IMG/VR virus record: IMGVR_UViG_3300030104_000569
Location: 1 to 25,988 of that record
Direction: 5' to 3' (one strand)
Length of the DNA: 25,988 nt
From: a virus
The number at the start of each line of letters is the position of its first letter. The stretch's first letter is position 1. Below are positions 1,663 to 25,988 of this stretch, in pieces. The translations under genes were made by a program, and so were the position numbers. A model generated the notes under the pieces. The model was not told where the DNA came from. It worked only from the letters and a program-made list of their open reading frames with translations, and did not search any database.

Positions 1663-1829
1663 TATTTTTGTTTAACCTCGTTTTCGTATGACATATCGGT
1701 CCCATGATCTTGCTTTTTCTTATATGTTCTTTTACATGCACAATTATCGCAAGCACAAATACCATATTCATCTGCATGTAAATCTCCATCGCAATGGCAG
1801 TCGTGATGACATTTTTTACATTTAGTCAT
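1662..1829 (-). CDS. Cys-rich 55-residue putative metal-binding protein
   Basis: I chose the ATG at 1829-1827 because a GAGGAG Shine-Dalgarno at 1838-1843 sits 8 nt upstream. The open frame extends further, to 1910, but would then overlap the upstream gene heavily. The first 33 residues contain eight Cys (4, 7, 11, 13, 25, 27, 30, 32) in one CxxC and three CxC-type pairs, plus several His. The C-terminal 20 residues are charged and lack Cys. The spacing looks like a small zinc ribbon or metallothionein-like metal-binding fold. It overlaps the upstream gene by 8 nt and the downstream signal-peptide gene by TAATG. No signal peptide is present, so it probably acts in the cytoplasm. Metal binding is inferred from composition and the biological role is unknown. 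Confidence 0.7.
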   Translation of the reverse strand: MTKCKKCHHDCHCDGDLHADEYGICACDNCACKRTYKKKQDHGTDMSYENEVKQK

Positions 1830-2472
1830 TTTTTTTCTCCTCAATCTCGTAAAAAAATTTATCAGTATCTTCTGTTCTCCATTTACGAGTATCTTCAACA
1901 TTCCATTCACTTGTTTGTACTTTCCAGTCAGGAATCTCGTCCTTAACTGTAAATGATGGGATGTCCCAAATTAATCTATTGTTTGGCTGTGCCGCATAGT
2001 TGCCGTCATCTAAGGCAAGTATATGTGCGCACTTATGTTCGTGCGGTATTTCAGAATGATCTGTATCTATTATATTACTCTCTGGATGTGCAAAGTCAAC
2101 TGTGAAAAGGTATGCACCATAATGCCATTTTTTATCTTTACCAATATATTTTCCTGATTGTCCATCTAAGATATCGTAAGAAGTAACAGCAGGATAATAA
2201 CTAAAACAATTCCATAGCTGCAGTTCATCAAGTCGTCGCCCAGGTACTTCTTTTGGATCAAAACCTCTTTGTATAAACGCAGAGATAGGCAATCTATAAA
2301 AGATTGCACCATTTTCCATAATCGCATGAAAGAGTATAGGGCGACCTGTGATTGATGTAAGGCCAAATACAATGCAGTCTTCAGTTTCGCCGTGATGCTT
2401 TTTAAGATCGTAAAGATATTCTCTTCTGATCTGTGCATAAGTCACAGGTATGTTTGCATTTAAATAGGCCAT
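1822..2472 (-). CDS. Conserved marine-phage protein of unknown function (216 aa)
   Basis: This is a soluble 216-residue protein with no membrane segment or signal peptide. From memory, its N-terminus (MAYLNANIP...RREYLYDLK) and the following CIVFG...GRPILFHA segment are typical of a family widespread in marine tailed phages that has no known activity. The central part is rich in aromatic residues (WHYGAYLFTVDF), a His-rich HEHKCAH segment lies near residue 145, and the C-terminal 40 residues are charged with repeated Trp. The start at 2472 has no clear Shine-Dalgarno sequence. The preceding 34-residue gene ends only 9 nt upstream, so translation may be coupled. It lies between the DNA polymerase and the secreted proteins. 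Coding status is confident; function is not. Confidence 0.82.
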   Translation of the reverse strand: MAYLNANIPVTYAQIRREYLYDLKKHHGETEDCIVFGLTSITGRPILFHAIMENGAIFYRLPISAFIQRGFDPKEVPGRRLDELQLWNCFSYYPAVTSYDILDGQSGKYIGKDKKWHYGAYLFTVDFAHPESNIIDTDHSEIPHEHKCAHILALDDGNYAAQPNNRLIWDIPSFTVKDEIPDWKVQTSEWNVEDTRKWRTEDTDKFFYEIEEKKND

Positions 2473-2481
2473 GTGTCATAA

Positions 2482-2586
2482 TTATTTAATTAAATTATAT
2501 ATTATAATTATTGCAACAACAGCTACTCCAATTTGTACTTTTCTATCAGACTTAACTTTTGCCACTATTTTGTTTATCATTTCCAT
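2482..2586 (-). CDS. 34-residue single-span membrane peptide
   Basis: The ATG at 2586-2584 has the best Shine-Dalgarno I found in the window (AGGAGG, about 7 nt upstream). That site is embedded in the last codons and stop of the DNA polymerase gene. The peptide begins with a short Lys/Arg-rich amphipathic stretch (about residues 5-17: NKIVAKVKSDRKV). One hydrophobic segment follows (about 19-30: IGVAVVAIIIIY) and it ends NLIK. The layout predicts an inner-membrane peptide with its basic N-terminus in the cytoplasm. It fills the otherwise empty gap between polymerase and the 216-residue gene. It is too short for routine gene callers. Function is unknown; small holin-like or membrane-anchor roles are possible. 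Confidence 0.65.
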   Translation of the reverse strand: MEMINKIVAKVKSDRKVQIGVAVVAIIIIYNLIK

Positions 2587-2588
2587 AA

Positions 2589-4484
2589 TTAACCTCCTGG
2601 TTTATTATATATATCTCCCCAACTGTTTCCAGATTCATAATCTACTTTATTAGGGATCTTTAACTTAACAGCATTTTCCATAATCTCAATAATTTTTTTA
2701 GCTTGTTTATCTGATTCAACAGAAATATCTAATTCATCATGTATTTGTATGTGTGGCACAATACCTTCTCTATATAAATTTAACATAGATTGTTTTGTCA
2801 TGTCGGCTGCACTACCTTGTATTAATTTATTTAATGCTTTGTAAGTCATAGCTCTTCTTATATTTGCTTTTGTAGCTTTAGGATATTTTTTAAAGTATGC
2901 TGCCTCTGCATCTGCTTTACTCATTGGTGCAACAAATTTACCGTTGTTCCATTCCGCTATTTCCCATTTATCAAACCTACATTTTCTACCACCAAATGTT
3001 TTTATGTACCCAAATGCAGCACCATCTCTTGATATTGCATCCATAAGATCTTTTACAAAAGGCACGCTATCATGATATTTGTTAAATAATTTTACTGCTT
3101 CTTCTTTTGTAGACAAACCTAACTCTGCTTGTAGTTTAGCTTTACCCATACCATAAAATAATCCGAGGTTAATTGTTTTAGCTTGTGTTCTCGATATGTT
3201 AGCCATGTTTGCAACAGTTTGATGGAAGTCTACTGTATTGTTTTGAAACCTTTCTACAATTTCAACTACTTCTTCATCACTTTTAAATTTTGTAGCTGCA
3301 TAGTGTACAACTAGTCTTGGTTCTTGCTGACTGTAATCAAAACATCCCCACTTGTGATTGTGTTCTGGTATAAATAATGATCTAATCATTGGCCCCAGCT
3401 GCTTGTTCCTCGCTGGAATTTGCTGAAGGTTAGGATTAGAATATGAAAATCTACCAGTTACCGTGCCCCCACTATCTCCTCTAATAGGATTAATATCCGC
3501 ATGTATTCTACCTTTATACTGATACTTAATTATAGTATCTATAAATGTAGTATGTGCCTTGTTTATTTCTCTAGCTTTTGCTATTCTCTGCACAACAGGA
3601 TTTGTATGCTCTTGTAAAAAATTTTTAGTAAAGGAGGGAGCTTTTGTTTTTGCGGTTACTTCATAGTCTAATTTCAATTTATCAAAAACTTTGGCAATGC
3701 TTCTTGCTGCCCATATTTGAGGCTCTATTCCTGTTTCTTTTTTTACTTCTAGGAGTAACGTTTCTTCTTGTGATGCTAATTGTTTCTTTAATTTATGAGC
3801 AGCTTCAACGTCTACGCGTACTCCCTTAAATTTCATATCAATTAAACACGGAAACAATTGTGTTTCAAGATCAAATACTTTTGTAAGATCCTGTGCTTTA
3901 ATTTCTTTAGATAATCTTTTAAACAAACTTAAAGTTAGCTCTGCATCTTTTTCTGCATAAGACCCCACATACATTGCAGGTAGTTTCCACATTTCAGCTT
4001 TAGCATCTATGCCTGCTTTATCTGCTGCAGCTCTTAGTGCTGTTTCATCTTTTACTTGATTAAGATAATCTAGAGATAAACTGTTTAATGAATACCAAAA
4101 TCTATTTTCATCTATAAGTGATGCCATAACCATTGTATCAACAATGTGGCCATTTATTTGCACTCCGTATGCTCTTAACCAACATACATCATACATTGCA
4201 TTGTGAAATAACTTTACGTTTGGTAGTGCACATACTTCTTTTATCCATCGCATTACTACAGCTTCGTCAAAAAAGTTTCCTTCTTTATGTCCAAAAGAAT
4301 AATAACCTGACCATCCTTCTACAGCTACAGCTATTCCTACAATTTCTCCTTCGCCAACTAATGCACCAGATCCTTTAGACTTTAGACCTGGATCTCTTGT
4401 TTCTAAATCTATTGCTATGTATTTGTGCTCTTTAAGGTCCGGAAAAGACTCTGGACTTATCCATTCCGTTTGAGCTTCAAACAT
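2589..4484 (-). CDS. polA: Family A DNA polymerase with 3'-5' proofreading exonuclease
   Basis: This is a replicative DNA polymerase of the Pol I (family A) type, 631 residues from the ATG at 4484, which overlaps the upstream stop as TGATG. A GTG one codon earlier is an alternative start. The N-terminal DnaQ-like exonuclease is complete: D26 and E28 (IAIDLET), D99 (FHNAMYD), Y176 and D180 (SYAEKDAE). The polymerase domain shows motif A with D383 (CFDYSQQEPR), motif B with R432, K436, L440 and Y444 (RTQAKTINLGLFYG), and motif C H582-D583-E584 (IQIHDELD). No 5'-3' exonuclease domain is present, as in other phage PolA. Position 440 corresponds to E. coli Pol I Phe762 and is Leu here. The gene follows the DUF3310 gene and, further upstream, the UvrD-like helicase and primase genes, so it belongs to the replication operon. 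Confidence 0.97.
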   Translation of the reverse strand: MFEAQTEWISPESFPDLKEHKYIAIDLETRDPGLKSKGSGALVGEGEIVGIAVAVEGWSGYYSFGHKEGNFFDEAVVMRWIKEVCALPNVKLFHNAMYDVCWLRAYGVQINGHIVDTMVMASLIDENRFWYSLNSLSLDYLNQVKDETALRAAADKAGIDAKAEMWKLPAMYVGSYAEKDAELTLSLFKRLSKEIKAQDLTKVFDLETQLFPCLIDMKFKGVRVDVEAAHKLKKQLASQEETLLLEVKKETGIEPQIWAARSIAKVFDKLKLDYEVTAKTKAPSFTKNFLQEHTNPVVQRIAKAREINKAHTTFIDTIIKYQYKGRIHADINPIRGDSGGTVTGRFSYSNPNLQQIPARNKQLGPMIRSLFIPEHNHKWGCFDYSQQEPRLVVHYAATKFKSDEEVVEIVERFQNNTVDFHQTVANMANISRTQAKTINLGLFYGMGKAKLQAELGLSTKEEAVKLFNKYHDSVPFVKDLMDAISRDGAAFGYIKTFGGRKCRFDKWEIAEWNNGKFVAPMSKADAEAAYFKKYPKATKANIRRAMTYKALNKLIQGSAADMTKQSMLNLYREGIVPHIQIHDELDISVESDKQAKKIIEIMENAVKLKIPNKVDYESGNSWGDIYNKPGG

Positions 4485-4747
4485 CACTTAGTTATTCCCC
4501 ATGAGTTTGGTTTTTCTTTTTTTTCTTCTTTCGGTTTTTCTGGATAGTCTCTATCAATTGCCATATCAATATAATGTTTAGCTTTTAGTAAGTCTTCTTT
4601 CTGATTTTTCTGCTTGTGCCTGCACAAATATTTTATAGCGTTTCCTTCTGCAAAGGGCAAGTTGTTTTTGTTTATAAACTCTGATGGCTGTATCACCATA
4701 GATCTATAGTGAGTTCCTCCTACTTGTTTTTTATATATGTCGCTCAT
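4484..4747 (-). CDS. DUF3310 family small protein
   Basis: The 87-residue protein shows the DUF3310 (Pfam PF11753) signature. GGTHY is at residues 10-14, a Pro-Ser-Glu-Phe segment follows, and then NLPFAEGNAIKYLCRH (about 29-44) and a DLLKAKHYID helix (52-61). The last 20 residues are a Lys/Glu/Pro-rich tail. Family members are frequent next to phage replication or nucleotide-metabolism genes. They have sometimes been labelled nucleotide kinase, but I know of no firm activity. The ATG overlaps the stop of the UvrD-like helicase gene (ATGA) and the TGA overlaps the polymerase start (TGATG), which suggests translational coupling of all three genes. Confidence 0.88.
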   Translation of the reverse strand: MSDIYKKQVGGTHYRSMVIQPSEFINKNNLPFAEGNAIKYLCRHKQKNQKEDLLKAKHYIDMAIDRDYPEKPKEEKKEKPNSWGITK

Positions 4748-6282
4748 ACTATTGGTTCTCCTATTGTGTAATGATAATCTGATGATGGTTGCATTATATG
4801 TAAATTTTCTTTTGCTCTTGTTGTGCCTACATAAAATAATCTATGTTCAGGATCTGGGTCATCATATGCTGCTCGATAAATAAATTCATCTTGTCCTTCA
4901 ACACCATAGTCTGTGAACAAACATATGTTTTCACATTCTTTACCTTTTGAACCATGTAAAGTAAGCAGTTGTATATTTGATTTATCCATTAAAGTATCTC
5001 CTCTTTCTAATAACGTTTGCATATATTCTTTTGTTTCTTCCGGAATATGCAATTGTTTCCAATCACCATCTATTAATAAACCATGATCTTTTTTTAATTT
5101 TTGTAAGTCTACACTCGTCTCTCGCTGCACGGTTCTACCATCAGAATAACCTCTTGCTACATGTCCTTTCTTAACTACTAAATGCGCGTAAAGTTTTTCA
5201 GCTTCTTCGGCAGAAACAGAAGCTCCTTGATTTAATCTTGTCCAAATTCGATAGACTTCTAATATAGAGTTGGGTAAATGTTTATTTGTTTTACCACTAA
5301 ACCTCATACCTAAAGAATAAAAATGCTCTGAAATATTTAGTAATAATTTGTTCGTTCTAGCCAATATCATCCACTCACCTTTAGAAAAATCAATCTCTTC
5401 TAGTATTTGATTATAGTGAACCATGCCTTCTGCATCTCTTGGTACCCATTTTTTCTTTATTCTAACACCAAGTCTATCTAATATCTTAACAGCTTCTTTG
5501 TGTACAGTTCTTGGAACTCTTCGTGATATTTCTTGATCGTCTCTTTCTCCTTCTTGCAACATAAAGCAATTAGGATCTGCTCCTTGAAACCCATAAATAG
5601 TTTGATCATCATCACCTGCTATGTAAGCTCTCTTGCAATTAGATTTTATATAATCAAAACACTTCCATTGATGTGGACTAAGGTCTTGGGCTTCATCGAG
5701 GAAGATGACATCGAGTGGAGGACATCTTTCTTCCTCGACAAACTTGTTGATCATATCATAGAATTCAATCATCTTAGATCCTTCTTTGTATAATCTTAAA
5801 TCTGTTTCTAATTGTATTGTAGTATCTACATCTACATCATGATGTTTCTGTAATTCAACAGTTGCACTTTCTATAGAAATTAATTTAGATCTTGCATATT
5901 GTATTATTTCTAAATGCTTGTTTTTATACATTGGATTACCCACCGCATCAGGTTTTGTTTCAAACGATATGTTTGTCCATTCTGGATACTCTTGTTTAAA
6001 TCTATTCCATTTTTTATTTTTAAGTAAATAAATGTTTGTATCTATACCGCATTCGTCTTTACCCATTTTATGCATGGTAGATATATGTTTTAGTTTTTTG
6101 TCAGGAAATAATTCTGAGATTCTTTCTTCTGCTTCTTCTGCTGCAGCCTTACTAAACGTAATATATATTATTTTTTGTGGGTCAGTATTATACTCATTTA
6201 ATTCTTTTTTTAAATAGTGGTTTACTAGTCTGTATGTTTTACCTGTTCCGGGTGGTCCCATTATTTTTTTTACTATAGCCAT
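4744..6282 (-). CDS. UvrD/Rep-like superfamily 1A DNA helicase
   Basis: This is an ATP-dependent 3'-5' DNA helicase by family. The 512 residues carry the superfamily 1 motifs in order: Walker A GPPGTGKT (9-16), motif Ia around YITFSKAAAEEA (40-51), motif II DEAQD (196-200), motif III GDDDQTIYGFQGA (223-235), a motif IV-like AR near 308-309, motif V LTLHGSKGKE (440-449) and motif VI YVGTTRAKE (484-492). At 512 residues it is much shorter than bacterial UvrD or Rep (about 670-720), with reduced accessory 1B/2B regions. It overlaps the primase stop by 10 nt and is followed by the DUF3310 and polymerase genes. Because no hexameric replicative helicase is visible, this may be the helicase that opens the fork for the phage polymerase; that is inference. 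Confidence 0.93.
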   Translation of the reverse strand: MAIVKKIMGPPGTGKTYRLVNHYLKKELNEYNTDPQKIIYITFSKAAAEEAEERISELFPDKKLKHISTMHKMGKDECGIDTNIYLLKNKKWNRFKQEYPEWTNISFETKPDAVGNPMYKNKHLEIIQYARSKLISIESATVELQKHHDVDVDTTIQLETDLRLYKEGSKMIEFYDMINKFVEEERCPPLDVIFLDEAQDLSPHQWKCFDYIKSNCKRAYIAGDDDQTIYGFQGADPNCFMLQEGERDDQEISRRVPRTVHKEAVKILDRLGVRIKKKWVPRDAEGMVHYNQILEEIDFSKGEWMILARTNKLLLNISEHFYSLGMRFSGKTNKHLPNSILEVYRIWTRLNQGASVSAEEAEKLYAHLVVKKGHVARGYSDGRTVQRETSVDLQKLKKDHGLLIDGDWKQLHIPEETKEYMQTLLERGDTLMDKSNIQLLTLHGSKGKECENICLFTDYGVEGQDEFIYRAAYDDPDPEHRLFYVGTTRAKENLHIMQPSSDYHYTIGEPIV

Positions 6283-7811
6283 GGTGATTTTTCTATTTTA
6301 GTTGTTCTTGGATTTGGTCTTTCTAATTTAATAGTAGGCATCTTTAATAACCTAATTGTTTTTGTGCCAACTTTAGGTGATGTTTCTTCTGCTTCAAATA
6401 AAGATTGTAATAGTCTTACTGTTTTTTGTTTAGGGTAAGTTCTTTCTGCCCACGATTTAGTTTTTAATAAATACTTCCAAAAATCTTTAAATTTAAAATA
6501 AGTAAAACCATCGGTATCTGTAAAAGCAATACCTCTCATAACATCTTTTAATTCTTTACCTGGAGTTTTATTTATATAGTCTGCTAGTATTTCTTTTAGC
6601 TGCACATCTAGTTTAGATGACGCTGGCGCAGGAATAGTTTCTAAATTAGCAAATAATTTTATAAGTAGCCTTCGCCACATATGTTTTGGTACAGGCATCA
6701 TTGGTTTACCTATTTGATTCATACACGCCAAAGAAAACTTTTCTGGATCGTGCAGTGTTGCATCATCCACTTCAACACTTTCGCCATCAATAGATGCAAA
6801 GTATATTGGTGGATCAGAATCATACTTTCTAATCTCTGTAATCTCTGGTGTAGGAGCATTATCGCCTACGCCAAATTGTTGTAGTGCACACTTTTTAGCA
6901 TCACAAAAACTATGTATAGGCTCATCCTTACATTTATAATTATATTCTTTACTATCTAAAGAACCTATTAAAGTATTTATTTCTGTTGCATCTAACGGAG
7001 GAGTCATAAATTGTTTGTTGTAAGTAAACATATAACTTTGCCATTCTTCTTTATCTGGATATCTTTTCTTTAAATAAACTCCAACATTATACATGCAGTT
7101 GTTTCTTTGACCATCTGGCACACCATCACTTAACAATGTAATTAAACAAGGAGGCATTCCTTTAAAAAGATCTGTTTCTTCTTTTTTGTTTTCTATTTTT
7201 AAATTATTTAATTGCTCTCCTGTTAAAGCTATCTCTTCATGTAGTTTAAAAAATTCATCTATCTTTAAAACATTACCATTTAAATCATATGCATATCTAA
7301 CTGTTCTTTCATTTGCATGATAAGGTAGGTTTAAAAAACTACCCGTGTCTCCACGATCTACTCTTATATAATCTTGTTTAGGAAATATTTCTGCACCTGC
7401 AAACCCCATTGCAGATGCAATAAGTTTTAGTTTTACTCTCATTACTGTTGCAGGAACAAATTCTTTTGTAAATAAAAATGCGTGCGCTCCGCCCGACTTA
7501 GATCTACAAACAATTATAGGTATGTTTTTTTCTTTTAGTTTTAATATAAATTTTTTATGATCAAATGGATAAGTGTCAATATCAATACATCCCCACTTAC
7601 ATTTGTTTTCTTTATTGATTGGTACAATACCTAATGCAGGATCTTTACCCTCTAGGTGTTCTCTCCATAATTTTTTAGTTACAGGATTTGATATTGTAAA
7701 TGATTTAGTTTTATGTTTACCTTTTTCACTGAATTGATCTGTCTTTACGGTTTGACCGTAAGCACTATTCAAGCCTTCAAATATATTTATAAATTTATCT
7801 AATTCAGTCAT
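6273..7811 (-). CDS. Archaeo-eukaryotic primase (AEP/PrimPol, TOTE-like) with Cys-rich C-terminal extension
   Basis: Start taken at the ATG 7811-7809; an in-frame GTG lies two codons upstream. Residues from about 40 to 170 match the AEP-type primase core. The order is W..H with GIVPI, the catalytic pair D77 and D79 (GCIDIDTY), the SGGxH motif with S106-G107-G108-H110, then AEIFPKQ and FLNLPYH. These last elements are typical of primases related to TOTE conflict-system primases. Residues of about 215-310 look like a PriCT-type helical module. It ends in a possible zinc site (C294, C303, C308, with H300 nearby). The C-terminal 190 residues are unassigned and show no Walker motifs, so no helicase is fused. 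It follows the putative SSB gene after a strong hairpin and precedes the helicase gene. It would make primers, and possibly extend them, for the phage polymerase. Confidence 0.85.
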   Translation of the reverse strand: MTELDKFINIFEGLNSAYGQTVKTDQFSEKGKHKTKSFTISNPVTKKLWREHLEGKDPALGIVPINKENKCKWGCIDIDTYPFDHKKFILKLKEKNIPIIVCRSKSGGAHAFLFTKEFVPATVMRVKLKLIASAMGFAGAEIFPKQDYIRVDRGDTGSFLNLPYHANERTVRYAYDLNGNVLKIDEFFKLHEEIALTGEQLNNLKIENKKEETDLFKGMPPCLITLLSDGVPDGQRNNCMYNVGVYLKKRYPDKEEWQSYMFTYNKQFMTPPLDATEINTLIGSLDSKEYNYKCKDEPIHSFCDAKKCALQQFGVGDNAPTPEITEIRKYDSDPPIYFASIDGESVEVDDATLHDPEKFSLACMNQIGKPMMPVPKHMWRRLLIKLFANLETIPAPASSKLDVQLKEILADYINKTPGKELKDVMRGIAFTDTDGFTYFKFKDFWKYLLKTKSWAERTYPKQKTVRLLQSLFEAEETSPKVGTKTIRLLKMPTIKLERPNPRTTKIEKSPWL

Positions 7812-7825
7812 TTCCACTCAGTGAC

Positions 7826-7857
7826 GTAGGCGGCTTCAGTCTCCCTTAGCCGCCTAC
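7826..7857 (-). promoter_or_regulatory. GC-rich hairpin between SSB-like and primase genes
   Basis: This is a perfect 10-bp inverted repeat (GTAGGCGGCT and AGCCGCCTAC) with a 12-nt loop. In the minus-strand transcript it begins 8 nt after the SSB-like stop and ends just before the primase start. The stem is 7/10 G:C in a genome that is mostly A+T. No U-run follows on either strand, so it does not look like a classic intrinsic terminator. It could stabilise the upstream mRNA 3' end, be an RNase processing site, or limit primase translation. The loop contains AGGGAG, which resembles a Shine-Dalgarno sequence but is too far from the start to serve it directly. Confidence 0.6.
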
Positions 7858-7865
7858 TATTCACA

Positions 7866-8591
7866 CTATTTACCGGACAAACTAGTGTAAAATTTCTTAG
7901 CACGTTCGTATAAAGCAGCGTCTTTAACTTGACTCTCTTTAACGACATTGTAACCGTACCATTGGTTACCTTTACCAGAATTTAAAACAGTTGTTAGTTT
8001 ATAAGAGTGGCTAAATGATGGTGGTGTGTAAGAACCATTCTTTCCATCAAGTGAAATAGACATCATCATAGAATTCCATTTCCTGCTTATCTTACCTTGA
8101 GATGAACTCATGGATATTAAAGCTTGTTCAGCTCCTCCGTCATCTCCAACAACCAATACATAGTGTTGGCCAACAGTTAGAATATAGTTACCATTTTCTA
8201 ATCTATCTTTACCTCCACCATCTTTAGTTGTTGATTCTAGAATGTCTGACCCATCTGGAAAAAGGTTTTCTGGTCTACCAGAACCTGTCCCAAAGTCAGC
8301 CCATTCTTGGTACTCTAACTTATAATGACATGGAATAACCGATACCCCATTTGCTCCATCATACAGTTTTTTAGTAACTGTATTTAAAAGCATACCAGGT
8401 TCTGCACCGTCAACATAATTTTGATTACGTTTCTGTGCTTCCCCAGAGCCATTCTGTAAAAGTTTTAAGATAGGTAAAGCCAAACTACTTGTCTTTACAT
8501 TCTCAAAACCTGACGCAGCATCATCTTCAAATAATATAGATGAAGGTAAGCCCGCCTCTTTCTTTATCGCTACTTGTTTCTCGTCACTCAT
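7866..8591 (-). CDS. Putative single-stranded DNA-binding / replication-associated protein
   Basis: This is a 241-residue soluble protein whose ATG is preceded by AGGAGATAG (good Shine-Dalgarno). From memory, the pattern (FENV...LALPILKLLQNGSGE, then GAEPGMLLNTVTKKLYDG, then GVSVIPCHYKLEYQEW) is a conserved phage family found beside DNA polymerase and primase genes and sometimes annotated as ssDNA-binding. The middle is beta-rich with aromatics (YQEWADF, YILTVGQHYVLVVG). A glycine-rich stretch falls near 120. The C-terminus is a helix without the acidic tail of E. coli SSB. It lies between the coiled-coil protein and the primase, the expected place for an SSB. The SSB role is inferred from position and recalled family resemblance only. 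Confidence 0.62.
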   Translation of the reverse strand: MSDEKQVAIKKEAGLPSSILFEDDAASGFENVKTSSLALPILKLLQNGSGEAQKRNQNYVDGAEPGMLLNTVTKKLYDGANGVSVIPCHYKLEYQEWADFGTGSGRPENLFPDGSDILESTTKDGGGKDRLENGNYILTVGQHYVLVVGDDGGAEQALISMSSSQGKISRKWNSMMMSISLDGKNGSYTPPSFSHSYKLTTVLNSGKGNQWYGYNVVKESQVKDAALYERAKKFYTSLSGK

Positions 8592-8593
8592 TT

Positions 8594-9145
8594 CTATCTC
8601 CTTGTTATTTTTGTACTGTTACCCGCGTAAGTTTTAAATAAGTCAGAGGGCATCTCACGTCCAGCTTCAAGACGCTCCCTGACTACTGCTTTAAGTGTCT
8701 GAGCATGAACCCCTATTTTCTGGACTGGTTCATATCCCTGACCTTTTGCAAGGTCTGCGTAAACGCTCGCCTTGTTGTCTTCGCCTCGACCAAAGGTAAC
8801 GGTAATATCATTTTTAATAATATCACCTAAGTCGTTGTCTCGAAGCCATTGAAAAGCTTGTTCCTGATGTTCAGGTAAGATAGCAGCACTATAGAATTTT
8901 TTTATTTCTACAGCCTCGCCGTCTTTAAGCTTTAATTTTGTAATATGCATCTTCTCCATCATCTCAGGTATTTCAAACTGAGATAATACTTTAGCTTGCT
9001 CTTTAAGTTTAGAGACGCTTTTTTCTGCATTTGCAATTTCGTCCTCTAAATTTTTTAATTCTATAACTTTACTAGACAAACTTTTAGCTGCGTCTGCCTG
9101 TGTTACAGATTGTACTCTATCTTTTTCATAGTCTATTTGACTCAT
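8594..9145 (-). CDS. Coiled-coil phage protein of unknown function in the replication block
   Basis: I chose the ATG at 9145 (183 aa) because AGAGGTG lies about 7 nt upstream. An in-frame ATG at 9163 lacks such a site. The first 35 residues are polar, and about 24-55 form a Leu/Lys/Glu-rich coiled coil. A beta-like segment (KLKLKDGEAVEIKKFYSA) follows at about 68-88. The C-terminal segment about 140-170 (VHAQTLKAVVRERLEAG, then MPSDLF) resembles, from memory, the ending of small proteins found beside SSB-like genes in other podoviruses. It overlaps the upstream gene by 20 nt and stops just before the SSB-like start. No catalytic motif is visible. A structural or adaptor role in replication or recombination is a guess. 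Confidence 0.78.
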   Translation of the reverse strand: MSQIDYEKDRVQSVTQADAAKSLSSKVIELKNLEDEIANAEKSVSKLKEQAKVLSQFEIPEMMEKMHITKLKLKDGEAVEIKKFYSAAILPEHQEQAFQWLRDNDLGDIIKNDITVTFGRGEDNKASVYADLAKGQGYEPVQKIGVHAQTLKAVVRERLEAGREMPSDLFKTYAGNSTKITRR

Positions 9146-9512
9146 CGATTTCACCTCTTTCATGTATGTTAAACTCAGTTGAGTAGTACATTTTTTCCTG
9201 CCTGTCCCAAGTTAACGTTTTATACTTTCCATTGTTAATATCACACGCAACAGCAATTGCCAAACCTATAACTTTTGGATCTCCAGATAAAAGTAAATAA
9301 TCTTCATCAGAAAAATCTTTTAATAAACGTCTAAGTTGATAAGTTATTGGTCCTGGACTTCTTACGATTTGTGTATCTTCTTTAAGAAGAACTTTTATCT
9401 GACCAAATTTTTGTGCACCAACAATATTATATTTTGGACGACCTATTTTTGTACCAGGAACTTCTTGTAGCAGATAAACTATCGGCTCACTGTTTAATGT
9501 TTTTTCTTTCAT
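9126..9512 (-). CDS. Small conserved protein, first gene of the replication block
   Basis: This is a 128-residue protein starting at the ATG 9512-9510. A frame extension to a TTG at 9521 is rejected because that codon lies inside the -10 element of the promoter. The promoter places the transcript start at about 9513, so the mRNA would be leaderless or nearly so. The sequence begins with a Lys/Glu-rich segment and continues with YLLQEVP and a GRPKYNIVGA segment. It includes a FSDEDYLLLSGDPKVIGLAIAVA region, suggesting a mixed alpha/beta domain, and ends acidic. It has no recognised domain. Being first after a near-consensus promoter, it is likely expressed early and strongly and could be a regulator, but no helix-turn-helix is evident. 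Confidence 0.75.
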   Translation of the reverse strand: MKEKTLNSEPIVYLLQEVPGTKIGRPKYNIVGAQKFGQIKVLLKEDTQIVRSPGPITYQLRRLLKDFSDEDYLLLSGDPKVIGLAIAVACDINNGKYKTLTWDRQEKMYYSTEFNIHERGEIDESNRL

Positions 9513-9514
9513 GC

Positions 9515-9543
9515 TTGACAATATAATCTTTTACATTTATATT
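9515..9543 (+). promoter_or_regulatory. Sigma70-type promoter for the SNF2-like helicase gene
   Basis: A consensus -35 TTGACA at 9515-9520, a 17-bp spacer, and a -10 TATATT (5/6 match) at 9538-9543. The predicted start is near 9550, about 14 nt before the ATG at 9564. The leader is purine-rich (AGAAAGAAAA) with only a weak Shine-Dalgarno. Confidence 0.75.
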
Positions 9544-9548
9544 GTCAA
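9520..9548 (-). promoter_or_regulatory. Sigma70-type promoter for the replication block
   Basis: On the minus strand TTGACA lies at 9548-9543 and TATATT at 9525-9520, with a 17-bp spacer. This mirrors the plus-strand promoter exactly. The predicted transcription start (about 9513) coincides with the ATG at 9512, implying a leaderless message for the first gene. I saw no other clear promoter in the leftward block, so this one may serve the entire replication operon. Confidence 0.75.
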
Positions 9549-9563
9549 CTAGAAAGAAAAAAA

Positions 9564-10997
9564 ATGATAAATTATAAATTTAAGACTAAACCTTACGCGC
9601 ATCAATTAACTGCCTTAGAAAAGTCATGGGAGAAACAAGTTTACGCCTATTTTATGGAAATGGGTACAGGTAAATCAAAGGTATTAATTGACAATATATC
9701 AATGCTTTACGACAAAGGTAAGATTAATGCTGCCTTAATTATAGCTCCAAAAGGAGTATACCAAAACTGGCATGATTCTGAGATACCCACACACTTAGTA
9801 GATCACATAGATAAAAAAATGGTCTTGTGGCAAGCCATGATTACAAGAACACAGGAAAAAAAATTAGAAACTTTGTTTGAAGCAGGAGAAGAATTACATA
9901 TTTTAATTATGAATGTAGAAGCTTTTTCTACTAAAAAAGGCGTAGCGTTTGCTAATAAATTTTTAAATTGTCATAATACACTAATTGCAATTGATGAGTC
10001 TACCACTATTAAAAACCCTGGTGCTAAACGTACAAAAAATATTTTAGCTTTATCTAAACAATCTAAATATAGAAGAATACTTACAGGTTCTCCTGTAACT
10101 AAATCACCATTAGACTTATATACACAATGCCAGTTTTTGGACTCTTGGTTATTGGGGCATGCTTCTTATTATGGGTTTAGAACTAGATACGCCGTAATGC
10201 GTAATGCAAACTTTAGTGGTAGGACTGTACAGATTGTTGTTGGCTATAGAAATTTAGCGGAATTATCTTCTAAATTAGAGCCTTTTTCATACAGAGTATT
10301 AAAAGACGATTGCTTAGATTTACCTGAAAAAACATTTATTAAACGTATAGTACAACTAAGTCCAGATCAATCTAAACTATATTTACAGATGAAAGAAAAA
10401 GCGCTTGCAGTATTAAATGGTAAGATGGTCAGTACAACAACTGTAATGACTCAACTTATGAGACTACAACAAATAACATGTGGGCACTTTACTGCTGATG
10501 ATGGCTCTACTCAAGAGATACCTAATAATCGTATAGACGAGTTAGTAGATGTGCTAGGTGAGATTGAAGGTAAAGTTGTCATATGGGGCCATTGGCAAAA
10601 AGATATGACGCAGATAATAAAAGCAATAGTTAAAGAGTATGGAGAAAAATCTGTTGTAGATTATTATGGTTTAACACCTAAAGAAGATAGACAAAGTAAT
10701 ATAAATAAATTTCAAAACGATCCAGAATGTAGGTTCTTTGTAGGAACGCCAGCAACGGGTGGTTATGGTATTACTCTTACGGCTGCATCAACCATGATTT
10801 ATTATTCTAATGGTTATGATCTTGAAAAGAGAACACAATCACAAGCCAGAATAGATCGTATTGGCCAAAAATATCCTATGACTTATATTGATATAATTTG
10901 TAAAGATACTGTTGATGAAAGAATTGTAAAAGCTCTTCGTAAAAAAATTAATATAGCTAGTCAAGTTATGGGTGAAGAACTTAAAGCTTGGATATAG
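9564..10997 (+). CDS. SNF2-family (superfamily 2) helicase/ATPase
   Basis: The 477-residue protein has both RecA-like lobes of an SNF2-type DNA translocase. The Q-like motif PYAHQ is at 10-14 and Walker A EMGTGKS at 32-38. Motif Ia is around LIIAPKGVYQNW (58-69). Motif II is IAIDEST (141-147, DEST in place of DEAH) and motif III is TGSPV (174-178). Motif V is around GYGITLTAAS (400-409) and motif VI QARIDRIGQ (427-435). No nuclease or other fused domain is present, so it is a minimal SNF2 core. It is the only plus-strand gene, with its own promoter, diverging from the replication block. Phage SNF2 helicases are often placed with replication or recombination proteins; a role in remodelling forks, stripping bound proteins or countering host defence is possible but not shown. 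Confidence 0.93.
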   Translation: MINYKFKTKPYAHQLTALEKSWEKQVYAYFMEMGTGKSKVLIDNISMLYDKGKINAALIIAPKGVYQNWHDSEIPTHLVDHIDKKMVLWQAMITRTQEKKLETLFEAGEELHILIMNVEAFSTKKGVAFANKFLNCHNTLIAIDESTTIKNPGAKRTKNILALSKQSKYRRILTGSPVTKSPLDLYTQCQFLDSWLLGHASYYGFRTRYAVMRNANFSGRTVQIVVGYRNLAELSSKLEPFSYRVLKDDCLDLPEKTFIKRIVQLSPDQSKLYLQMKEKALAVLNGKMVSTTTVMTQLMRLQQITCGHFTADDGSTQEIPNNRIDELVDVLGEIEGKVVIWGHWQKDMTQIIKAIVKEYGEKSVVDYYGLTPKEDRQSNINKFQNDPECRFFVGTPATGGYGITLTAASTMIYYSNGYDLEKRTQSQARIDRIGQKYPMTYIDIICKDTVDERIVKALRKKINIASQVMGEELKAWI

Positions 10998-23361: not shown

Positions 23362-25236
23362 TTAGGATTGTAAACCTCCGTGCGAGTCTGATGCACTACC
23401 TTTTTCACTAGCTGCTGCTTTTAAATCTCCAAAATCAGCGGCATCTCCTGTAGAAGCAATAGTTATATAATCTATAGTAGTTTCTTTTCCTGGTGTATGA
23501 CGACCAGCAAACACTGCCCTAGTTCCATTTGAACCTGGACAAGCCGCTTTTCCAGCTTGTGTTAAATCACCGAAATCAGAAGCATCTCCAGTTGATGCAA
23601 TCGTTACATAATCTATAACATCTGAATTACTTGGTGATCCTCCACCTGCCGCAACGGCTCTTACTGATGAAGCTGCTCCAGAACAGTTTGATCTCGATAG
23701 CGTTAAATCACCAAAATCACTTGCATCTCCAGTTGACGCAATAGTAACATAATCTATAATATTTATTTGTGATGGTGTTGTTCCTCCAAGAGACAAACCT
23801 CGTGTATTACTAGATGCACCAGCAGGAGCTTGTTTAACATTTGTTAGATTTCCAAAGTCAGTAGCATTTCCCATAGTTGCAATAGTAATATAATCAATTA
23901 TATTTACAATGTATGGTGAACCAGGTGCATATCCTCCCATAAAAAGTCCACGAGTAGTATTTCCAACATTACCATAAGCATGCCCATAACGTTCCTGTGT
24001 TGTGTCACCAAAATCACAAACGTTGCCTTCAGTAGCAAACTCTATTGCTTGCATTTCAGCAGTGTAATATGGTGATCCAGGAAAATAATATCCGCTAGAA
24101 AAAACAGCTCTAGTATAACTAGAAGCACAACCTATACCATTTGATATTTGACTTCTTAAATCACCAAAATTTCTTGCATTACCTAAAGTTGGTATATTGT
24201 ATGTATCTATATCAACTGTTCCACTACCAGGTGAAAGTTGACCGCCGCAAATTAATGTTTTTCCTGATCCAGGCATATGGGTTACTGATGGACGTTGTAT
24301 AGAATCTAAATCTATTCCACCGTGAGCTGGCATTGCTATGGAATTTAACGTATCTCCATTAGCTAAATCTCCAAAATCTGTTGCATTACCAAAAGTTGCA
24401 ATAGTTACAAAATCAATTACATTAACAACAGTACCTCCACCCGTAGTTCCCCCTAAACACAAACCTCTAATTGAATTTGAAGCTGATCCATTATCTCCTC
24501 TAGCTACTGTTATATCACCAAAATCTGCAGCGTTTCCTGTTGTAGCTATTTGTACAGTGTCGATAGTGCTAACCACTGATGGACTATGGTTTCCCATAAA
24601 AACTGCTCTTGTTGAACTTGAATTAGCTGCTGGTCCATTTTTAGCGGCAGTTAAATCTCCAAAATCTGTTGTATTACCTGTTGTTGAAATTGTAACATAT
24701 TGAATAACATCAATATCACCAGGTGCACCCCCTCCTGCAAATAAACCTCTAGTAGTTGAACTAACTGCCCCTCCACTTCTTGTAGCAGCAGCTAAATCTC
24801 CAAAGTCAATGGAATCACCAAGAGATGCCATAAAGTTATAATCTATTACATTAGAATGACTAGGAGTTGCACCTCCTCCTCTAATTCCCCTAACATTATT
24901 TCCAAGTGCACCCTCACTACCATCTCTTGTGCTATTTGTACTATCTCCAAAATCTGCAGCATTACCTTCTGAAGCTATGGTAACATAGTCTAATATGTTT
25001 GTTTGAGCTGTTCCTGGAAAACTTCCATTTACACAAATACCTCTTGTAGTAGAAGTAAAACAAGAATTAGATCCTCGATTTTGTGTTAAAGTTCCAAAAC
25101 TACTACTATTTCCTGTTGTGCTAATATTAATTTTTTCAATTGCGTCTGATCCATTATTCTGTAATAAAGCTCTATCATTTCTACTCTCATTAGCTCTAAC
25201 TATATTATATCGTTCTTTAATATCCCAAACAGCCAT
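23362..25236 (-). CDS. Tandem-repeat (kelch-like) fibre protein, 624 aa
   Basis: After a unique N-terminus (MAVWDIKERYNIVRANES), the protein is almost wholly made of about twelve repeats of roughly 47-50 residues. Each has an RGLF-GG segment, then NVIDYVTIASTGDASDFGDL or a variant, then a variable polar linker. The Gly-Gly doublet and four-strand rhythm recall kelch beta-propeller blades. It ends SDSHGGLQS. From memory, such proteins are frequent in marine phage fibre regions, often as several copies. A receptor-binding or fibre-associated role is inferred from repeats and context. It starts by TAATG overlap with a paralogous gene. Repeats near the C-terminus are almost identical and those in the middle have diverged. 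Confidence 0.85.
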   Translation of the reverse strand: MAVWDIKERYNIVRANESRNDRALLQNNGSDAIEKINISTTGNSSSFGTLTQNRGSNSCFTSTTRGICVNGSFPGTAQTNILDYVTIASEGNAADFGDSTNSTRDGSEGALGNNVRGIRGGGATPSHSNVIDYNFMASLGDSIDFGDLAAATRSGGAVSSTTRGLFAGGGAPGDIDVIQYVTISTTGNTTDFGDLTAAKNGPAANSSSTRAVFMGNHSPSVVSTIDTVQIATTGNAADFGDITVARGDNGSASNSIRGLCLGGTTGGGTVVNVIDFVTIATFGNATDFGDLANGDTLNSIAMPAHGGIDLDSIQRPSVTHMPGSGKTLICGGQLSPGSGTVDIDTYNIPTLGNARNFGDLRSQISNGIGCASSYTRAVFSSGYYFPGSPYYTAEMQAIEFATEGNVCDFGDTTQERYGHAYGNVGNTTRGLFMGGYAPGSPYIVNIIDYITIATMGNATDFGNLTNVKQAPAGASSNTRGLSLGGTTPSQINIIDYVTIASTGDASDFGDLTLSRSNCSGAASSVRAVAAGGGSPSNSDVIDYVTIASTGDASDFGDLTQAGKAACPGSNGTRAVFAGRHTPGKETTIDYITIASTGDAADFGDLKAAASEKGSASDSHGGLQS

Positions 25237-25988
25237 TATCCTTGTAAACCTCCATGAGAATCTGAGTTTCCAACTAAACCTCTTATAGCAGCTATTAAAT
25301 CTCCAAAATCAGCAGCATCTCCAGTAGAAGCAATAGTTACATAATCAATTACATTTGAAACACCAGGTGCAGCTCCACCTCCTGTCACACCTCTAATTGA
25401 GTTTGATAGAGAACCAGTATCATATCTTGCTGAAGTTAAATCACCAAAGTCTGTTACATCACCCGTTGAAGCTATTGTAATATATTCTAAAATATTGTGT
25501 GAGGCTGGATGTACTGATCCTCCTGAAACTATACCTCTTGTGCTAGAAGAAAAACCAGTTGTTTCTGTTCTAGCTGCACTTAAATCTCCAAAGTCTGTTG
25601 TATTTCCAGTTGAAGCTATGGTAACATATTCAATTATATTTACTTCAGCACCTGGTGCTGTTCCACCAGCAAACACACCTCTTGTATTATTACTAATACC
25701 GCCTGTACTTTGACGACCTGCACTTAAATTTCCAAAATCACTTGCATCCCCCATAGTTGCCATTGTTACATACCCTATTGTATCATTTTGAGTAGGACTA
25801 ACATGACCTCCTCCAAAAAGTCCTCTAGTAGTACTACCTACATTTCCATTTTGTGGATCATAAACAGAAACAGTTAAATTTCCAAAGTCGGCAGCATTAC
25901 CTAATGATTGGAATTCAACAGATTCAATTGTATTTGTGTAATCAGAACCATATCCTCCTGCTGAAAGAGCACGAGTTAAACTTGAAGC
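25236..25988 (-). CDS. Tandem-repeat fibre protein, paralogue of the next gene (5' end beyond right edge)
   Basis: The reading frame is open from the right edge of the window to a TAA at 25236, giving 250 visible residues. The true start is outside. A Met at 25763 is internal, since repeat sequence continues in frame upstream of it (RALSAGGYG, DYTNTIESVEF, SLGNAADFGNL). It contains five full repeats of the same kind as the downstream gene and ends SDSHGGLQG, almost the same C-terminus. A tandem duplication of a fibre gene is the simplest explanation. The last codons include AAGGA, the ribosome site for the downstream gene. Confidence 0.85.
   Translation of the reverse strand, partial: ASSLTRALSAGGYGSDYTNTIESVEFQSLGNAADFGNLTVSVYDPQNGNVGSTTRGLFGGGHVSPTQNDTIGYVTMATMGDASDFGNLSAGRQSTGGISNNTRGVFAGGTAPGAEVNIIEYVTIASTGNTTDFGDLSAARTETTGFSSSTRGIVSGGSVHPASHNILEYITIASTGDVTDFGDLTSARYDTGSLSNSIRGVTGGGAAPGVSNVIDYVTIASTGDAADFGDLIAAIRGLVGNSDSHGGLQG

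Follow-up and report, generated by a model that had tools for sequence, protein, structure and literature searches.

Divergent promoters that occupy the same stretch of DNA have been described in the Bacillus plasmid pLS20, in which the −10 and −35 boxes of one member of the pair Pc/Pr coincide with the −35 and −10 boxes of the other. RNA polymerase binds one of these promoters at a time, and the polymerase itself is held to be the selector (PMC4207663). For the switch, promoters of unequal strength and a regulator that acts differentially have been cited as requirements; the pLS20 promoters are very unequal and are placed under RcoLS20, with flanking operators and looping (PMC4207663). A second group of such elements comprises the bidirectional promoters studied by Warman, Grainger and colleagues, whose divergent starts lie 7–25 bp apart, most commonly 18 bp (PMC10268837, PMC12825309).

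Among phages, the HTVC023P-type pelagiphages (HTVC023P, HTVC027P and 023Pt_psg01, hereafter psg01) carry the same gene block as the DNA analysed here, with an SNF2 helicase gene divergent from a first small gene that is followed by primase, helicase and family A polymerase genes. HTVC027P lacks an RNA polymerase gene of its own and depends on the host polymerase (PMC12753301). No promoter analysis of the gap between the SNF2 gene and the first small gene was found in the literature on HTVC023P-type pelagiphages.

In this work, we describe this gap in IMG/VR virus record IMGVR_UViG_3300030104_000569, of which a stretch of 25,988 nucleotides (the window) was analysed. The site shares its head-to-head arrangement with pLS20, but its boxes are equal in score and abut with one common base, and a repeat search of the window and the adjacent gene product revealed no regulator. 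It also differs from the bidirectional class, which is characterized by reciprocally overlapping −10 boxes and starts 7–25 bp apart, because its −10 boxes are not shared and its predicted starts are approximately 37 bp apart. HTVC023P, without paired TTGACA boxes, and HTVC027P, with a shared −10 layout, are both unlike the window. We consider it likely that the gap holds overlapping divergent sigma70-type promoters for the RNA polymerase of the SAR11 host, which compete and divide initiation between the SNF2 gene and the replication genes.

Paired promoter boxes between the SNF2 gene and the replication block

The SNF2-family DNA helicase gene (9564–10997, + strand; PF00176 and PF00271; phrog_62) is separated by 51 bp from the Pam3 gp32-like gene (9126–9512, − strand; PF23992). 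The latter heads the replication block, and the genes downstream of it on the − strand (1822–9163) encode Pam3 gp33-like and gp34-like products, an AEP-type primase, a UvrD-like helicase, a DUF3310 protein, a family A DNA polymerase and a phrog_3704 member. The same gene order occurs in HTVC027P and psg01, and a similar one in HTVC023P, the deposited records of which were opened at the corresponding gap. Because the conserved order of PolA, primase, helicase and SNF2-type helicase matches these phages, the window is read as a fragment of an HTVC023P-type pelagiphage, an assignment made by gene content and homology for a partial record. The phrog_3704 ORF (1822–2472, − strand) is annotated as ‘ferredoxin’ in the host-takeover category and is without a Pfam match. 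At the other end of the window (23362–25988, − strand) lie long ORFs of repeated ‘TIASTGDASDFGDL’-type units, apparently a single repeat protein split between two frames, or else a tandem pair of such proteins.

Direct reading of the sequence confirms the perfect inverted repeat that had been described in an earlier note, which occupies 34 bp (9515–9548) with 12-bp arms, TTGACAATATAA (9515–9526) and TTATATTGTCAA (9537–9548), around a variable 10-nt centre (9527–9536, tcttttacat). The repeat writes TTGACA-17-TATATT on both strands. The predicted SNF2 promoter (9515–9543, + strand) consists of a −35 box at 9515–9520 and a −10 box at 9538–9543, separated by a 17-bp spacer; the predicted promoter of the replication block (9520–9548, − strand) has its −35 box at 9548–9543 and its −10 box at 9525–9520, with the same spacer. 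As the note had also proposed, each −35 overlaps the −10 of the other strand, but by a single base, at 9520 and at 9543. Both strands therefore carry −35 and −10 boxes within the 16–18 bp spacing, and overlapping, that define divergent sigma70-type promoters of this kind.

Each site scores 12.7 bits, and together they are the two top sigma70-type scores in the 26-kb window, a ranking to be read with the promoter rules of SAR11 not established. The record of 25,988 bases holds no further exact copy of TTGACA-17-TATATT. First-order Markov simulations of the window predict 0.017 such sites on both strands summed, while two are present at one place. The same simulations predict 0.075 perfect inverted repeats of at least 12 bp (loop 0–20 nt), and at least one appeared in 6% of runs. 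From these expectations, the palindrome alone is marginally unusual, but the promoter pair is not due to chance. The simulated frequency of perfect repeats is what speaks for a chance palindrome or for a hairpin element, for example a terminator or an origin feature. We regard this as extremely improbable, because the repeat is kept at the same gap in relatives as distant as approximately 68% identity in SNF2 and 47% in gp32, where its centre is unrelated, its spacing obeys promoter rules, and the predicted transcripts begin outside it. A hairpin or terminator was rejected on this last ground, the repeat being absent from the predicted transcripts. An Rfam search of the window and of two relatives that carry inserts (L110 and L026) gave no match.

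Judged from spacing, transcription would start at approximately 9550–9551 on the + strand and 9513–9512 on the − strand. The predicted + start near 9550 is directly followed by AGAAAG (9551–9556, + strand), which probably serves SNF2 as a ribosome-binding site, and then by the SNF2 ATG. An exact complement to this motif is available in the one SAR11 16S 3′ end that was read from the fetched loci, CCTCCTTTCT, which is able to pair with AGAAAG. On the opposite strand, the gp32-like ATG at 9512 lies 7 nt past the −10 box, so that a leaderless or near-leaderless mRNA is predicted from this spacing. The same distance from −10 to ATG occurs in 21/21 upstream regions of the span-34 class (P0001 set).

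Comparable boxes were also sought on the host side and elsewhere in these phages. CTTGAC is present in 12/12 SAR11 rRNA upstream regions, approximately 230 nt before 16S and with an unclear TATAAT; this is weakly supportive, as the regions were chosen by a neighbouring conserved block. That position in L432, L435, L437, L445 and other SAR11 loci bears a conserved block, AATATACGCCTTGACTTAT...TTGTAATAAAAC, a candidate rRNA promoter. Two further candidates were set aside: a TTGTCG..TATAAA block approximately 73 nt before SAR11 16S, picked by a best-match scan, may be a processing site, and the tRNA-Ile TTGACC is uninformative, as it lies inside the rRNA operon. Literature searches returned no paper on an alphaproteobacterial CTTGAC consensus and no relevant paper on SAR11 transcription start sites. 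TTGACA is enriched in non-coding phage DNA, with 7 occurrences in HTVC027P (1.7 expected) and 8 in psg01 (2.3 expected). In HTVC027P (MN698241), TTGACA with a TATAGGAT- or TAGGAT-like −10 occurs at 388+, 17395−, 17718−, 19224+ and 19774+, 46–75 nt before gp02, gp33, gp34, gp36 and gp38; high expression, early to middle, has been reported for gp33 and gp34 (PMC12753301).

Conservation and the seat of the symmetry

The exact arms were found in 16 IMG/VR contigs, every one beside the same gene pair and with differing centres. As that search selects on exact arms, a set independent of the site was assembled through SNF2 and gp32-like protein searches; it comprises 250 unique 100-nt upstream regions and includes a few of the 16 contigs. 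The pair TTGAC..GTCAA is present in 111 of these 250 upstream regions of SNF2 homologues, against 0.2 expected from shuffling, although the counts are not independent owing to shared ancestry. Its span takes the values 33 (11 regions), 34 (20), 36 (3), 37 (58) and 38 (19), and no other. Among 90 unique cores, 58 have TATA at a spacer of 16–18 on each strand, compared with 0.5 in shuffles that preserve the −35 ends.

Some observations count against paired promoters: 7 of the 27 cores of the 33/34 class have a degenerate minus −10 (TAAAAG and similar) although the arms are still present; the minus −10 is weak in many psg01-type sites; and divergent genes without paired TTGACA boxes are found in the HTVC023P clade and in relatives further removed. 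Comparison of the gap among relatives, which the earlier note had put forward as a check, thus shows paired boxes kept in many of them, but the perfect symmetry is confined to one set of relatives and the HTVC023P clade is without the boxes. That many relatives retain the overlap yet alter its spacing suggests that the start signals are genuine and compete with each other, and that the site does not serve to dock a repressor.

Divergent gene pairs are common flanks of a regulator's operator, and such a setting, together with the perfect symmetry in the window and the retention of TTGAC..GTCAA at loci with a degenerate minus −10, would suit a dimeric phage regulator, repressor or activator, that binds the symmetric arms and makes the likeness to promoters secondary. 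An operator of this type would have half-sites at a fixed distance and symmetry extending beyond the boxes. Among the relatives, the distance between half-sites ranges instead from 33 to 38 bp, and the −10 moves with its own −35. At span 38, the −10 lies at offset 23 from its own −35 on 13/15 + strands and 14/15 − strands; at span 37, it does so on 38/45 + strands, with the minus TATA mostly at 22 or 24. E. coli weights alone underrate TATATA, TATATG and TATATC as the minus −10 at spans 37–38, and for this reason a test of TATA position was added. Over spans 37 and 38 combined, TATA stands at +23 from its own −35 on 70/120 strands, compared with 4/120 at the position, counted from the opposite arm, that a rigid half-site would take.

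The bases between the boxes point in the same direction. At span 38, arm complementarity at positions 6–10, between the −35 and the opposite −10, is 66, 0, 6, 6 and 33%, while positions 11–15, which form the boxes, reach 80–100%; it is thus the promoter boxes that carry the symmetry. Within the class of the window, the + −10 varies (TATATT, TATCTT, TATGTT, TAACTT) with no matching change in the − −10, unlike a palindromic operator. Since each −10 keeps approximately 17 bp from its own −35 as the span changes and the intervening bases are asymmetric, the palindrome is best read as a by-product of two promoters. A rigid operator was rejected on the span variation and the tracking of the −10.

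The site with 12-bp arms has no second copy in the window. The model of the adjacent gp32-like protein (pLDDT 84) has an alpha/beta architecture in which no helix-turn-helix was seen, and comparison of its fold with the PDB gave no match at E ≤ 0.001. The weak Foldseek matches of this protein (E 0.005–0.1, TM 0.4–0.5) are mostly CARF/SAVED domains, including ring nuclease Sso2081, Cad1-CARF, Csa3, a viral SAVED ring nuclease and Cap4/Cap5, and are too weak to claim kinship. Taken with the comparative evidence, a dimeric regulator acting on the arms, as the earlier note had suggested, appears very unlikely.

Natural controls and alternative layouts

A natural control is provided by relatives in which the upstream gene is co-directional with SNF2 (10 unique regions, the L070–L084 group). 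The + TTGAC is kept in 10/10 of these regions and the GTCAA partner in 0/10, so that the partner promoter is absent from these loci, in which the neighbouring gene is not divergent; the regions form one clade and therefore represent one or few events. In another group of loci (L026, L110/L111, L187, L228 and L241), inserts lie between the pair and SNF2; the pair stays upstream with its span unchanged. Some of these inserts contain inverted repeats, and that of L228 resembles the terminal part of a small ORF rich in cysteine.

Other relatives present different layouts. In the HTVC027P clade, TTGACT-17-TATATA is found on the + strand in 47/51 regions and TTTACT-16-TATATA on the − strand in 43/51, both built on one palindromic TATATA; with predicted starts approximately 19 bp apart, these sites would belong to the bidirectional class. 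The HTVC023P clade has TTGAT-type + boxes in 27/44 regions and TTTGCA-type − boxes in 37/44, which may serve as promoters there. On an approximate FastTree phylogeny of 137 SNF2 proteins, the grouped layouts require 16 changes, as labelled by an automatic procedure that missed some HTVC027P-type sites (AGTAAA overlapping ATG). Classes 33/34 and 36–38 each require at least 5 changes on starred branches of the same tree, with several interconversions.

Proposed division of initiation and possible function of the overlap

The proposed mechanism begins with two promoters interdigitated within approximately 34 bp between SNF2 on the + strand and the replication block on the − strand, of which the host holoenzyme would bind either. 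Given the overlapping footprints, initiation at one promoter would block the opposite one while polymerase stays on the DNA, and since the predicted starts are 33–37 bp apart, two polymerases should not fit. That only one direction can be used at a time is a sound inference from an overlap well inside the polymerase footprint and from published overlapping promoters (PMC4207663, PMC12825309). With equal boxes, the site would act as a divider that apportions initiation events to SNF2 and to the replication genes, and a bistable switch would not be expected. The perfect palindrome itself would arise because both strands use one pair of hexamers, with each −35 abutting the opposite −10.

A true regulatory switch would need a phage or host factor that biases occupancy during infection, so that SNF2 and the replication genes are timed differently. 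The core of the pLS20 switch is likewise a pair of overlapping divergent promoters (PMC4207663), and the overlap at our locus survives inserts and span changes. The unequal promoter strength of pLS20 is not seen here, as the two boxes in the window have equal scores, by sequence score only. Furthermore, no bias is conserved, since the stronger side varies from relative to relative, and neither a candidate regulator nor a flanking repeated operator was seen in a repeat search of the window or in the product of the adjacent gp32-like gene. For these reasons, division of initiation is better supported than switching, which we consider unlikely. Of the earlier note's interpretation, the paired divergent promoters are well supported by box conservation and by the near constancy of each promoter's own spacing, while the simple switch and the operator for a dimeric regulator are not.

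The overlap may also be nothing other than compaction, with two ordinary promoters squeezed into a 51-bp gap and the resulting exclusion having no function of its own; we regard this as nearly an even call. Fifty-one base pairs are too short for two 29-bp promoters plus leaders side by side, so compactness alone could force the overlap, and these genomes are dense (2.8 kb of the 57.6 kb of HTVC027P is non-coding). Against this, spans of 33–38 bp are unchanged in gaps of 61–70 bp and, with inserts, in gaps of up to approximately 257 bp; the extra length never parted the promoters, which inheritance could explain too. Retention of the overlap in longer gaps therefore tips the balance towards a function, though it may be inherited. 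Compaction is compatible with competing promoters that divide initiation and differs only on function, and for this reason our confidences in the two should not be expected to add up to one.

More tentatively, selection may keep the overlap itself. The geometry would then have been rebuilt repeatedly, at 33–34 bp, at 36–38 bp or around a shared −10, and exclusion between polymerases would be a conserved device that sets the ratio of SNF2 to replication gene expression across one phage family, a possibility that we hold to be somewhat doubtful. The gap supplies a concrete and testable promoter consensus together with approximately 250 natural variants. Because most of these variants keep the overlap under changing geometry, the locus is a good model for asking whether overlap between divergent promoters is functional or only compaction.
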